From a virus, in the IMG/VR virus record IMGVR_UViG_3300027573_000779, positions 144,934 through 208,933 of that record: a stretch of 64,000 nucleotides of DNA. One strand, given 5' to 3'. Shown here in pieces: positions 33,521-53,696 of the stretch (the stretch's first letter is position 1; every line of letters begins with the position of its first letter). The notes beneath the pieces were generated by a model. It searched no databases and was not told where the DNA came from. It worked only from the letters and a program-made list of their open reading frames with translations. Made by a program: the position numbers and the translations under genes.

Positions 33521-33546
33521 ATGCTCAAGCGCCGCAGGGCTTAGTT

Positions 33547-33833: not shown

Positions 33834-34028
33834 TTAAAAATCAAGTCGATTGCTCAAGCCGCTCCTAAAAATTTCACTTACAATTTGGTCCCAAATTTGC
33901 CCCTTAACTTGGTTCCAAGTTTGTCCTCCAATTTGGCTCCCAACTTGTTTCCAAACTTGCTCCCAGACTTGGTCCCCAACTTGGCTCCAAACTTGGTCTA
34001 TAATCCTTTCTTTAATTATTTGGGTCAT
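33834..34028 (-). CDS. WDQ family protein
   Basis: A 64-residue protein, mostly regular units: VWSQVGDQVWEQVWKQVGSQ, then IGGQTWNQVKGQIWDQIVSE. Starts with MTQIIKERI, like the MT(R/K/Q)-type openings of several other copies. Its plus-strand shadow is also open in all frames because the unit is 12 nt. Confidence 0.8.
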   Translation of the reverse strand: MTQIIKERIIDQVWSQVGDQVWEQVWKQVGSQIGGQTWNQVKGQIWDQIVSEIFRSGLSNRLDF

Positions 34029-34034
34029 AAAGGC

Positions 34035-34259
34035 TTAAATTTGGTCCCAAATTGCGTCCTCAAGTTGTTTCCGAAGGTTGTCCCAAAGTTGTTCCCTAAG
34101 TGGATTCCAAACTTGTATAACCTGCATCCAAATTGGGTCCCAAACCTGTTCATCAAGCTGACTTTTAACTTGGTCCCCAACTTGGTCCCAAATAATCTTA
34201 CGAATCTCAATATCGGTTTGGTACCAATCCTCCGATAATTTGTCTAGCATCATTTTCAT
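34035..34259 (-). CDS. WDQ family protein
   Basis: Units include IIWDQVGDQVKSQLDEQVWD, IWMQVIQVWNPLREQLWDNL and a terminal AIWDQI. A promoter (TTGATT/16/TAAATG) overlaps the first codons. Followed 6 nt later by another WDQ gene. Confidence 0.75.
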   Translation of the reverse strand: MKMMLDKLSEDWYQTDIEIRKIIWDQVGDQVKSQLDEQVWDPIWMQVIQVWNPLREQLWDNLRKQLEDAIWDQI

Positions 34260-35132: not shown

Positions 35133-36128
35133 TTAATAGTCCTGATTTAAAATCTTGACCGACAGTGATTTACCAAGAATTGGGGAATATTTGGGCGTTA
35201 TTGGTCGCAAAACAATCCCCTCTGCCTTGCGCTCTTGTCCTGTAGATGTGAGATAAATAGCCTTGTTAGCTTCTTCCTGAAGCCGCGCCATGGTCCAAGT
35301 ATCATCAAATGTAAAAGGTTCACTAACAGGAATAACCACAGGAATTTGCAATTGGTTGCATAACTCATTTATTTCCTGCCAGTTATACCATTTGCCAGTA
35401 TCAAATTCTTTAACATTAAAGACAAACATCTGAAAACTGTTCAGGCCCAATGGGTTACCTTGAATTTTGCCCCCGCAAGCCTCTGCTTGAATAGCAATGT
35501 TTTTACCCAACTCTTTAAGCTTAGAAGTTAGATTATATTGGTCTGCAATCTTCCAAAAGCCGGTCCCTTCTTTTTGCTCCAGCCGCCGACTGCAAACGCG
35601 AACTTCACCGTTTTCATAAATCACAGTCATTGAAGAACCGTCAGCTTTGATAGTTAAATAACAAAGTTCATTCCTAAACTCTTCTAAAATCTCTGGATAG
35701 TTTTGAATGTTTTCTTCGTCTGTAATTGAGATTAAATGAGTAGGAAAAGAACCCTTGGCGTCTCCATTAACAGAAGAATCAATAGGTTTGTCGTATTTTA
35801 AAATACCTAAAGCTTCCGAAACGTCCGAACCTTCTTCAACCTGATAGTTATAGCTTGGAATGATAGTTAAAGGGCAAACTAAACCCTGAGAAGGAGAGCC
35901 GCGAAACTTGGCGTTCCAGACACGATATTTTTGCCTTTCTAAAAAACTAAAATAAGAATTCGCGCTAGGAACAATAGAGTCAATACGAATAAACACCACT
36001 AAATCGCCGTTTTTATATTCTCCCTTCTTAACCACAACAGGCCATTCTTTAATTTTGGCGACTTCAAGAGAGTCGGCGTTGAAATGTGGTTGGACGCTAT
36101 GAATTCGTTCAATTGTGGCTAATTTCAT
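35133..36128 (-). CDS. RNA ligase, DRB0094/Rnl5-like
   Basis: A 331-residue protein with an N-terminal OB-type domain and a nucleotidyltransferase core: motif I KADGSS with Lys161 as predicted adenylylation site, motif III FQMFVFNVKE, motif IV EGIVLRP and motif V SVKIL. This matches the DRB0094/Rnl5 type, which seals nicked RNA ends. The 5' leader is unusual: it holds a leaderless uORF and three hairpins before the ATG (see 36129-36271). It probably works with the RlaP-like enzyme at 40751 and the cREC-like protein at 52656 in RNA repair. Confidence 0.88.
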   Translation of the reverse strand: MKLATIERIHSVQPHFNADSLEVAKIKEWPVVVKKGEYKNGDLVVFIRIDSIVPSANSYFSFLERQKYRVWNAKFRGSPSQGLVCPLTIIPSYNYQVEEGSDVSEALGILKYDKPIDSSVNGDAKGSFPTHLISITDEENIQNYPEILEEFRNELCYLTIKADGSSMTVIYENGEVRVCSRRLEQKEGTGFWKIADQYNLTSKLKELGKNIAIQAEACGGKIQGNPLGLNSFQMFVFNVKEFDTGKWYNWQEINELCNQLQIPVVIPVSEPFTFDDTWTMARLQEEANKAIYLTSTGQERKAEGIVLRPITPKYSPILGKSLSVKILNQDY

Positions 36129-36271
36129 TTTAAAAGGTACCCACTAGCGAACTGGCTAGTGGGTGGTTTTTTTTACCTTTACTTAACAAGCCTGCAAACC
36201 AACAAACAGGTTAATTTGCAGCGTCTTCCCCGAAGACATTTTAATGATATCAAGCCTTTCTAAAAAGTCAA
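36129..36271 (-). promoter_or_regulatory. Structured leader of the RNA ligase gene
   Basis: Promoter TTGACT (36266-36271)/16/TATCAT (36244-36249). The transcript then holds hairpin 1 GTCTTC-GGG-GAAGAC (36223-36237), hairpin 2 CTGCAAA...TTTGCAG (36192-36221) and hairpin 3 CCCACTAGC-CAGTTC-GCTAGTGGG (36140-36163), ending 11 nt before the ligase ATG. On the plus strand hairpin 3 is followed by eight T and would be an intrinsic terminator for antisense transcripts. Confidence 0.65.
36183..36239 (-). CDS. Leaderless 18-residue uORF before the RNA ligase
   Basis: ATG 36239 lies 4 nt after the -10 TATCAT. The peptide MSSGKTLQINLFVGLQAC ends at TAA 36183 before hairpin 3. Hairpins 1 and 2 are inside the uORF, so translating it would open them. 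Could be a regulatory uORF or a small protein. Confidence 0.45.
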   Translation of the reverse strand: MSSGKTLQINLFVGLQAC

Positions 36272-36318
36272 TCTCTCAAGTGCCGAGGGGCTAAGTTTTC
36301 GCTAAGTGCGCCGCAAGG

Positions 36319-36570
36319 CTAATCTTTTTGGTGAACTTTAAATGCTAGTATCTTAGTGGGGTTTGGACAACGCCAACCGTCAGTAATACACTCATATCCA
36401 AGAGTCCTCAGAACTGTTCTAAAAGTATTTGTTTCACTTAATGATAGTTCTACCGCATCGCCCACATTCATTGTGTTCGCTAAAGTAATGAGATTCTTTA
36501 AGGTTTGTTCTCTTGAACCCCTTCCTTTAGGAATGGGTAAATTTTTATGTATCGTAAAACTTTTAACCAT
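36319..36570 (-). CDS. Hypothetical protein, 83 aa
   Basis: Starts 6 nt after the zinc gene at 36576. SREQTLKNLITLANTMNVGD then AVELSLSETNTFRTVLRTLG looks like a helix-strand domain. It is followed by tandem GCC/GGC elements and the ligase promoter. Confidence 0.55.
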   Translation of the reverse strand: MVKSFTIHKNLPIPKGRGSREQTLKNLITLANTMNVGDAVELSLSETNTFRTVLRTLGYECITDGWRCPNPTKILAFKVHQKD

Positions 36571-37018: not shown

Positions 37019-37243
37019 TTATTTTTGGTCCCAAACTTGGTCCTCAACTTGGTCCCAAACTTGGCCCTGAACTTGGTCCCAAACTTGGTCCCGAACTTGG
37101 TCCCGAACTTGGTCCCGAACTTGGTCCCGAACTTGGTCCCGAACTTGGTCCCAAACTTGGTCCCAAACTTGGTCCCAAACTTGGTCCCGAACTTGGTCCC
37201 GAACTTGGTCCCAAACTTGGTCCTCAACTTGACCCTCAATCAT
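37019..37243 (-). CDS. WDQ family protein, longest regular array
   Basis: A 74-residue protein made almost entirely of four-residue DQV(W/R) units: after [14 protein letters not shown] come about 16 units that differ mainly by W, R, Q or E in one position, ending VWDQK. At DNA level this is a 12-bp tandem repeat with no stop in any frame. Amphipathic helix periodicity of 4 residues. The copy just upstream (37240-37382) is frameshifted and shares its ATGA junction. Confidence 0.85.
37025..37237. repeat. 12-bp minisatellite inside WDQ gene
   Basis: About 17 tandem copies of a 12-bp unit, on plus AACTTGGTCCCA with single-base variants (C/G at one position, CCC/CTC at another). Because the unit is a multiple of 3, gain or loss keeps the frame, so length variation is expected between isolates. 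Confidence 0.85.
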
Positions 37244-39893: not shown

Positions 39894-40127
39894 TTAAAAC
39901 GCCGAGGGGCTAAGCGCCATAGGGGGTTCTGTGTTCCAAGCTTGGTGCCAAATTTGGTTTTCTACTTGGCTCCCAATCTGTTCCCAAACTTGGTCCCAAA
40001 TCTGTTCCCAAACTTGGCCCCAAACTTGGCCTTCTATTTGGTTCCAAATTTGGTCCCCAATATGGTGGTCCCCAATATGGTCCCTAACTTGGTCCATAAC
40101 TTGGTTCTGAATGTTGTCTCTTGTCAT
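39894..40127 (-). CDS. WDQ family protein
   Basis: MTRDNIQNQVMDQVRDHIGD, then IWNQIEGQVWGQVWEQIWDQ and VWEQIGSQVENQIWHQAWN. First of four tandem WDQ genes (39894-40764) running down to the RlaP-like gene. Nearly perfect units in the middle. Confidence 0.8.
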   Translation of the reverse strand: MTRDNIQNQVMDQVRDHIGDHHIGDQIWNQIEGQVWGQVWEQIWDQVWEQIGSQVENQIWHQAWNTEPPMALSPSAF

Positions 40128-40557: not shown

Positions 40558-40764
40558 TTAGTAAATTTTGCTGCACCGAAAAACTTGGTACAAAATTTCA
40601 TTTTTAATTTCATACCTTATTTGTGGGTCCCAATAATCCTGAATTTGGTTATGAACCTGCTTGCTAATTTGGTTGCCAGCTTGGTTGAACAACGGTCTTA
40701 CAACAAGTTCCGAAGTTTGACCCCGAACAAAAGCATCCTGATTCTCAATCTTATCTTGGGTCAT
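40558..40764 (-). CDS. WDQ family protein, degenerate
   Basis: MTQDKIENQDAFVRGQTSEL then NQAGNQISKQVHNQIQDYWD. Overlaps the end of the RlaP-like gene by 14 nt. Last copy of the four-gene tandem run. Confidence 0.65.
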   Translation of the reverse strand: MTQDKIENQDAFVRGQTSELVVRPLFNQAGNQISKQVHNQIQDYWDPQIRYEIKNEILYQVFRCSKIY

Positions 40765-41488
40765 ATTTTATTAAAAAAGGTAAATACAATTTAATACAAA
40801 TCTCAGTAGCCACTTTTTCATCAAAACAATATGTAATCGTTCGTTTTTCAAAAGCTTTGTCTAATTCTTTTTCAGCTTCATCTACTTGTTTGTTTAAATC
40901 TTCTTTTTTGTAATTAGCTGGATTAGTTTTAATATCTATTAACCGCGCCGCAAAATCAGGGTTATATTTTTTGACATTAACGGGAAAAATCCCGTCAGTA
41001 AAAAAATACTTACCAGCCCAAGCAAGCCTAAATAATTGCACCGCATTCTTAAAAGAATAGCCAAACTCTTCTACCGCCTTGTGCCGCTTTGAACCTAAAA
41101 GCCCAGTCCGCTCGCCGTTCATCAATCTTCTTTCCCCAAACATGTAGCCTTTTAAAGATTTATATAAATGTTTACTATCAAGCAAAGAAAATTTATGAGT
41201 AAGGATTAACGCCCATTCTGGAGAGGGTTTAAAATTCGGCGCTTCATCTGTAAAAAGCAATTCTAAAGCCTGAGTGTTAGTCTTTCTTAAGCTGGATAAA
41301 AAATGTCGAAGCTCAAAAAGAAAAGTATCATCATTTTCTTTTTTAATATCCTGATGGTCGAACCTTTGGAGACCAATAATCTTTTCGGGTTCTTCGTTTA
41401 AAAAACAACCCCTAGCGTCCAAGTCGGACGCTGGAGTATTTAAACCGTAAGCATGACTTCCACCAAGAGTTGAGTAAATAATCTTCAT
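40751..41488 (-). CDS. RlaP-like nucleotidyltransferase (DNA polymerase beta superfamily)
   Basis: A 245-residue protein with the nucleotidyltransferase signature GGSHAYGLNTPASDLDARG (residues about 9-27; G-S then paired Asp22 and Asp24 as metal ligands), then a helical C-terminal domain. This is the RlaP/PF10127 type described as linked to RNA repair ligases. The Rnl5-like ligase lies 4.6 kb downstream on the same strand. Likely adds or trims nucleotides at broken RNA ends. Coupled to the gene at 41485 by ATGA overlap and followed by WDQ genes. Confidence 0.85.
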   Translation of the reverse strand: MKIIYSTLGGSHAYGLNTPASDLDARGCFLNEEPEKIIGLQRFDHQDIKKENDDTFLFELRHFLSSLRKTNTQALELLFTDEAPNFKPSPEWALILTHKFSLLDSKHLYKSLKGYMFGERRLMNGERTGLLGSKRHKAVEEFGYSFKNAVQLFRLAWAGKYFFTDGIFPVNVKKYNPDFAARLIDIKTNPANYKKEDLNKQVDEAEKELDKAFEKRTITYCFDEKVATEICIKLYLPFLIKYDPR

Positions 41489-53458: not shown

Positions 53459-53657
53459 CTATTTCGCAATATAAAGGTGAATTAAAAAATGGATACCATT
53501 CGGCCCAAACCGGCGTTCCTTCCTGTTCTTTTGGGTCATAAATGTAAGCGCCTAAATTAGTGCAACCCACAGCTATGCCATCAAACAGTTTAAGTTTTCG
53601 GCCAGAGTCAACTTTATAAACTCTGGCCTTTCTGCAAACCTCTGCGTTTATATACAT
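53427..53657 (-). CDS. Hypothetical protein, 76 aa
   Basis: L-promoter TTGAAA/17/TAAGAT ends 8 nt before ATG, with a palindromic operator across the promoter and start (53654-53684). Small beta-rich protein (RKLKLFDGIAVGCTNLGAYI). No motif; regulation seems special. Confidence 0.6.
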   Translation of the reverse strand: MYINAEVCRKARVYKVDSGRKLKLFDGIAVGCTNLGAYIYDPKEQEGTPVWAEWYPFFNSPLYCEIDDTNTNSRPS

Positions 53658-53684
53658 ACCACAGTATCTTACACTATGGTATGT
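53654..53684. promoter_or_regulatory. Operator-like inverted repeat over -10 and start codon
   Basis: On plus, CATACCACAG (53655-53664) and CTATGGTATG (53674-53683) form an inverted repeat with one mismatch (9 of 10 pairs; flanking A/T also pair). It spans the -10 TAAGAT and overlaps the start codon of the 53657 gene, so a repressor or an RNA hairpin at the 5' end could control it. Confidence 0.55.
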
Positions 53685-53696
53685 TTGTTTTCAAGT

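Follow-up and report, generated by a model that had tools for sequence, protein, structure and literature searches.

An RNA ligase gene of this phage is preceded by an RNA leader that is both real and unusual, in a phage whose early region is itself unusual in being mostly leaderless. Between the ligase promoter and the ligase AUG lie about 110 nucleotides (nt) of RNA with three strong hairpins. We read this segment as a lineage-specific, structured noncoding leader that would set the stability and translation of the ligase mRNA, a reading to which we assign a probability of roughly 45%. The promoter class, the structure and its rarity, and the absence of the leader from the relatives found were computed, while the start site, the stabilizing and damping roles and the cis action on the ligase are what we infer. 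Arguably, the promoter and the leaderless layout shared across the phage form a more general result than the ligase leader.

The window, that is to say the whole stretch of DNA analyzed, comprises 64,000 nt (from base 144934 of a phage record to its last base, 208933), and nearly all of its genes lie on the minus strand from ~9.7 kb to its right end. This minus-strand gene cluster contains RIIA and RIIB, a DUF932 protein and the ligase (35133..36128, minus), a Naegleria RNA ligase/Rnl5-like protein of 331 aa. The ligase call made in the initial annotation stands: an N-terminal OB domain (PF21189, residues 3-87, 2.2e-22) is followed by an RNA_ligase domain (PF09414, residues 157-312, 3.2e-20), which is the order of Rnl5 and Naegleria-type ligases (OB, then nucleotidyltransferase), and the closest solved structure is the Naegleria gruberi RNA ligase (PDB 5cot/6vt3, E 1e-40). 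The motif I lysine (KxDG) is K161 in KADGSS, and the catalytic motifs EGIVLR (303-308) and VKIL (324-327) are invariant in A1. The ligase alone matches PF09414 in the phage record. An RlaP-family nucleotidyltransferase gene (40751-41488, minus) located 4.6 kb from the ligase suggests an RNA repair set; the phage record holds six tRNAs, and neither RtcB nor AAA_33, the chosen proxy for polynucleotide kinase, was found in it. Repeats such as DQVWDQV (at the DNA level, ACTTGGTCCC...) make up many small ORFs that are spread over the early region, examples on the minus strand being 37019-37243, 33834-34259 and 39894-40127.

Early promoters and the start of the ligase transcript

Minus-strand promoters of the early region share the consensus TTGaca-tttTAAAAAGATwtTg-TATaaT, with a 16-nt spacer that carries an A-tract, and 46 sites of this family lie in the gene cluster (13173-60232, minus). 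The promoter matrix was trained on 15 promoters with the ligase promoter left out, and it returns 49 sites on the minus strand and 6 on the plus strand, where mononucleotide shuffles return 0-4. For 39 of the 46 minus-strand sites, the first ATG lies 3-13 nt past the -10 box and opens at least 50 codons, versus 5.3% at random positions, a count that is partly circular because training sites were picked for a nearby ATG; the majority of the 46, however, lay outside the training set and were brought up by the matrix itself. The gap between the -10 box and the ATG in these 39 leaderless genes is 6 nt in 18 genes, 7 nt in 8, 8 nt in 7, 9 nt in 4, and 13 nt and 3 nt in one gene each. Shine-Dalgarno-like motifs are depleted before gene starts (7 of 78, versus a background of 15.5%). 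Wholesale leaderless transcription is the predicted rule for the early genes of this phage.

When the whole record is scanned with a looser pattern, promoters fall into two stretches, about 5-24 kb and 160-205 kb, with almost none between and nearly every one on the minus strand, which suggests one early region, possibly continuous across the ends of the record. Besides that of the ligase, six promoters have no directly placed long ORF (48901, 38483, 31763, 25169, 17928 and 16932), and their leaders are either shorter than the ligase leader or far less structured. At 17893-17722 (minus), a leaderless ORF of 22 codons precedes another short ORF in a different frame, and the pair resembles a single small gene broken by a frameshift. 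Literature searches on leaderless early genes of phages gave a Lactococcus phage study as the sole match, and those combining leaderless mRNA, bacteriophage genomes and early promoters gave none.

The ligase promoter (36244..36271, minus) consists of TTGACT (36271-36266), 16 nt and TATCAT (36249-36244), and it belongs to the early family with a score of 25.0 from the matrix trained without it. The ligase ATG lies 115 nt past the -10 box, which sets the ligase apart from the leaderless genes. In 34 of 47 promoters the 7th nt after the -10 box is a purine, and the start predicted at this position from the promoter family is 36237 (minus), which is both the base at which pairing in hairpin 1 begins and the G of the ATG of an upstream ORF (uORF). 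This uORF, MSSGKTLQINLFVGLQAC, spans 18 codons (36183..36239, minus) from the ATG at 36239 to a TAA at 36185-36183. The initial annotation had located the promoter, the 4-nt gap, the ATG, the 18 codons and the stop correctly and had named the arrangement a leaderless uORF; promoter and ORF do exist, but the gap of 4 nt compares with at least 6 nt in 38 of the 39 leaderless genes, and at least 18 open codons follow an ATG by chance with a probability of 0.35. Because the ATG is only 4 nt past the -10 box, the expected start lands on its G, and given the longer gaps elsewhere the uORF AUG is predicted to be cut off the RNA or to sit right at its edge, probably leaving the 18-codon ORF incidental and translated only with a start at 36239 or upstream. 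Starts can vary by 1-2 nt and RNA polymerase could use 36239, which would restore the uORF. A start on the G of the AUG, an ordinary ORF length and the occupation of nearly the whole uORF by hairpins 1 and 2 together make a structured leader without coding function the preferred reading, ahead of a leaderless uORF.

An intergenic element, AAGCCCTGCGGCGCTTGAG(cat/ag), recurs in the phage, often doubled, and ends right before an ATG, where the gene has no promoter, or else right before a promoter's -35 box. Minus-strand copies occur, for instance, at 33540, 33314, 38914, 39396-39358, 36319-36272, 44165-44118, 39910-39862, 25117-25065 and 14517. The copy upstream of the ligase promoter (36272..36319, minus) is a doubled GCC-loop-GGC mini-hairpin plus CTTGAGAG. 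An AUU at 36272, which is in frame with the uORF, was considered as a possible start codon and dropped, because CTTGAGAG is also found immediately ahead of the -35 box in other promoters and thus does not mark ribosome sites in particular. Neither a promoter nor a TTGAG element lies close to the internal ligase AUG, so that the usual start signals of the phage are all missing there.

Structure and distribution of the leader

Inspection of the predicted fold reveals three hairpins in succession. Hairpin 1 (36223..36237, minus), GUCUUC-GGG-GAAGAC, pairs 6 bp around a 3-nt loop and is blunt at the predicted 5' end, and hairpin 2 (36192..36221, minus) pairs 12 bp around a 6-nt loop at -14.3 kcal/mol. 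Hairpin 3 (36133..36180, minus) comprises a 10-bp core (36164-36139) and a 6-bp outer helix, in which AAAGGU (36180-36175) pairs with ACCUUU (36138-36133) across a 10-nt A8CC bulge. This outer helix begins 2 nt past the uORF stop and ends 4 nt short of the ligase ATG. Folding bears out the two hairpins earlier placed inside the uORF (36237-36223 and 36221-36192); the hairpin described before the ligase ATG is likewise present, with a core of 10 bp rather than 9 and the outer helix in addition.

The leader is strongly structured, as had been claimed, with a whole-leader minimum free energy of -41.8 kcal/mol (z = -5.25) that none of 200 shuffles reached; the individual hairpins have z values of -2.9 (hairpin 1), -3.6 (hairpin 2) and -5.7 (hairpin 3). 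Among 6390 windows of 110 nt (both strands, GC-adjusted) the leader ranks third, and the first-ranked lies at ~40.0 kb within a tract of repeat-rich ORFs. Of 78 gene starts, none is as structured over the preceding 50 nt as that of the ligase (-19.5, versus a mean of -5.4 and sd of 3.5), where pairing reaches ~5 nt before the AUG and leaves the AUG itself partly open rather than fully buried. The second strongest pre-start structure of the 78 belongs to the ORF starting at 53657, where a 13-bp hairpin (53657-53685, minus) spans the ATG. At the other end of the leader, the ligase transcript is the only one of 47 predicted transcripts with a strong 5'-terminal hairpin (-6.3, the next being -2.0). 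An alternative 6-bp helix (36164-36169 with 36196-36201) would disrupt hairpin 2, whereas the core of hairpin 3 would stay nearly intact. The leader contains neither a sense terminator nor an exclusive terminator/antiterminator pair of the kind that marks a transcription attenuator, and in Rfam 15 it matches no family above the gathering cut-off (best sub-threshold score 25.2, where 79 is needed).

Relatives of the ligase were found at 34 loci in viral contigs, and their upstream regions, 140-nt stretches or longer, were read by eye. The leader is present in 0 of these 34, a set from which very near records are possibly absent, so that its function is without backing from conservation or covariation. 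In two relatives (L004 and L005), a TTGACT promoter adjoins the ligase ATG with a 7-nt gap, which is perhaps the ancestral layout. In a third (L003), a promoter of this kind opens a leaderless ORF of 45 codons, and the ligase ATG overlaps the stop of that ORF. All three of these relatives sit within tRNA clusters, directly 3' of a tRNA-Gln gene. Distant blastn searches of phages gave no match to the leader, no second copy of the leader segment exists in the phage's own record, and no ligase was confirmed in genome contigs. Viral contigs contained neither the exact pattern of the intergenic element nor the promoter-plus-ATG pattern. The hairpin 3 stem was also considered as a shared module and dropped, its three matches in viral contigs sitting in unrelated sequence.

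Proposed action on the ligase and competing explanations

In the reading we prefer, ligase transcription would start at 36237 from a standard early promoter, and the mRNA would open with the blunt hairpin 1, followed by hairpin 2 and then by hairpin 3 ending 4 nt before the AUG. Such a leader would remove the ligase from the default mode, in which ribosomes bind a 5'-terminal AUG, and the message would be shielded at its 5' end and poorly accessible just before the ligase start, so that ligase output would depend on the opening or removal of hairpin 3. If true, this would be a case of RNA acting in cis to control an RNA-repair enzyme of a phage, and the ~40 leaderless sister genes provide a clean internal comparison for when the phage gives up leaderless translation.

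Translation of the uORF offers an unlikely but credible alternative. Transcription would start at 36239, ribosomes would translate the 18 codons and melt hairpins 1 and 2, and termination at 36183 would cover AAAGGU, open the outer helix of hairpin 3 and permit reinitiation at the ligase. The uORF ATG is the first after the promoter in a phage that favors leaderless AUGs, the AAAGGU situated 2 nt past the stop pairs with the ACCUUU just 5' of the ligase AUG, and L003 offers an arrangement of promoter, leaderless 45-codon ORF and overlapping ligase. Against this stand the short gap described above and a stop-to-start distance of 54 nt that contains the 10-bp core hairpin, since coupling drops with distance; for gene VII/IX, moving the upstream stop well ahead of the hairpin abolished coupling (PMC12548453). 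No likeness was noticed between the uORF and the ORF of L003.

The edges of the segment bear on a second alternative, a recent neutral insertion in which a hairpin-rich segment duplicated TTAAAATG and is tolerated with no selected role. The leader segment (36126..36244, minus) carries this 8-nt direct repeat at both junctions (36244-36237 and 36133-36126), whereas a match of at least 5 nt before the ATG occurs in 0.7% of leaderless-start pairs, and deletion of the segment in silico yields a standard leaderless ligase gene. The repeat, which is AT-rich and includes the start codon, weakly hints at insertion between promoter and ligase ATG, and the absence of the leader from every relative fits such an event. 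The repeat is short, however, the segment has neither a second copy in its own record nor a match in phages, and hairpin 1 fits the predicted start to the base, as an arbitrary insert need not. We regard a neutral origin of this kind as unlikely.

The own promoter, blunt 5' hairpin and compact fold would also suit a stable, trans-acting RNA of ~110 nt, with the ligase expressed partly by readthrough. On the d'Aubenton-Carafa scale, hairpin 3 scores -27 in the sense direction, where its tail is UACCUUUUAAAAUG (also given as UACCUUUUAAAAUGA), whereas two ordinary phage terminators within the window reach +45 and +47. The lack of a sense terminator there speaks for a leader rather than for a separate small RNA, which also matches no Rfam family above cut-off and is in our view doubtful.

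On the plus strand, hairpin 3 and the T8 that follows it (36138..36175, plus) had been called a good terminator that could stop antisense transcription; in that role it would guard the ligase promoter from opposing transcription. The T8 tract is present after the stem and the site is listed first in the terminator scan, but its score is borderline at -2 to +9 by the stem chosen, far from +45 and +47, and the T8 follows a short G-containing spacer. Terminator-like sites in the region occur at the shuffle rate (19 versus 17.4 +/- 4.0). Furthermore, the surrounding genes are nearly all on the minus strand, matrix matches there number 49 to 6 on the plus strand, and to the left of hairpin 3 the matrix gives no promoter on the plus strand for about 6 kb, the nearest match being weak and ~6.3 kb away. 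A useful stop for antisense transcription is not supported on these counts, and such a role is very improbable.

Autoregulation or RNA-damage sensing by the leader, which the initial annotation took from the layout, is possible but unsupported, nothing beyond that layout speaking for or against it. In the most specific form of damage sensing, ribonucleases released by host defense would cleave hairpin 3 close to its base and yield a nearly leaderless ligase mRNA, a damage-armed switch in which RNA cleavage itself would turn on the RNA-repairing enzyme; we hold this to be very unlikely. Least probable of all is a DNA-level operator, in which a dimeric regulator would bind the 24-bp inverted repeat CCCACTAGC-N6-GCTAGTGGG downstream of the promoter, since this repeat, despite its perfect 9-bp arms, is single-copy in the record by DNA search and leaves hairpins 1 and 2 unexplained.

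Comparison with known systems

Stabilizing 5'-terminal hairpins are found in bacterial mRNAs of the ompA type. The ligase message resembles these in placing hairpin 1 at its predicted extreme 5' end, where a stabilizing role is putative, and differs from them in carrying two more hairpins, one of which is set against the start codon. Leaderless ('TA-led') bacterial genes, in which the -10 box precedes the start codon by about 12 bp, were described in a survey of bacterial and archaeal genomes (Zheng et al. 2011, PMC3160421). That layout suits most of the early genes here but not the ligase, which has a promoter plus a ~110-nt leader. The short ORF and hairpins before the ligase recall leaders that act through uORFs, coupling or attenuation (PMC12548453), from which the present leader departs in the off-position start of its uORF, its wide spacing and the absence of any competing terminator/antiterminator found in it.

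With respect to RNA repair, the accessible text of an account of jumbo-phage repair sets regards phage RNA ligases with RlaP as likely to reverse the damage that the host inflicts on RNA (PMC7824862), and the ligase and RlaP-family gene found here 4.6 kb apart appear similar to such sets; that text describes no RNA leader and does not contain the word 'leaderless'. The rtcBA RNA repair operon is induced by tRNA fragments and controlled at transcription by RtcR, a CARF-domain activator (PMC7790460). This phage record differs in lacking RtcB and in showing only a leader, and the likeness lies in an RNA-repair ligase whose control could follow RNA damage, for which RtcR (PMC7790460) provides a possible precedent in principle. 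For the phage ligase itself, the leader probably controls the stability and translation of the message.
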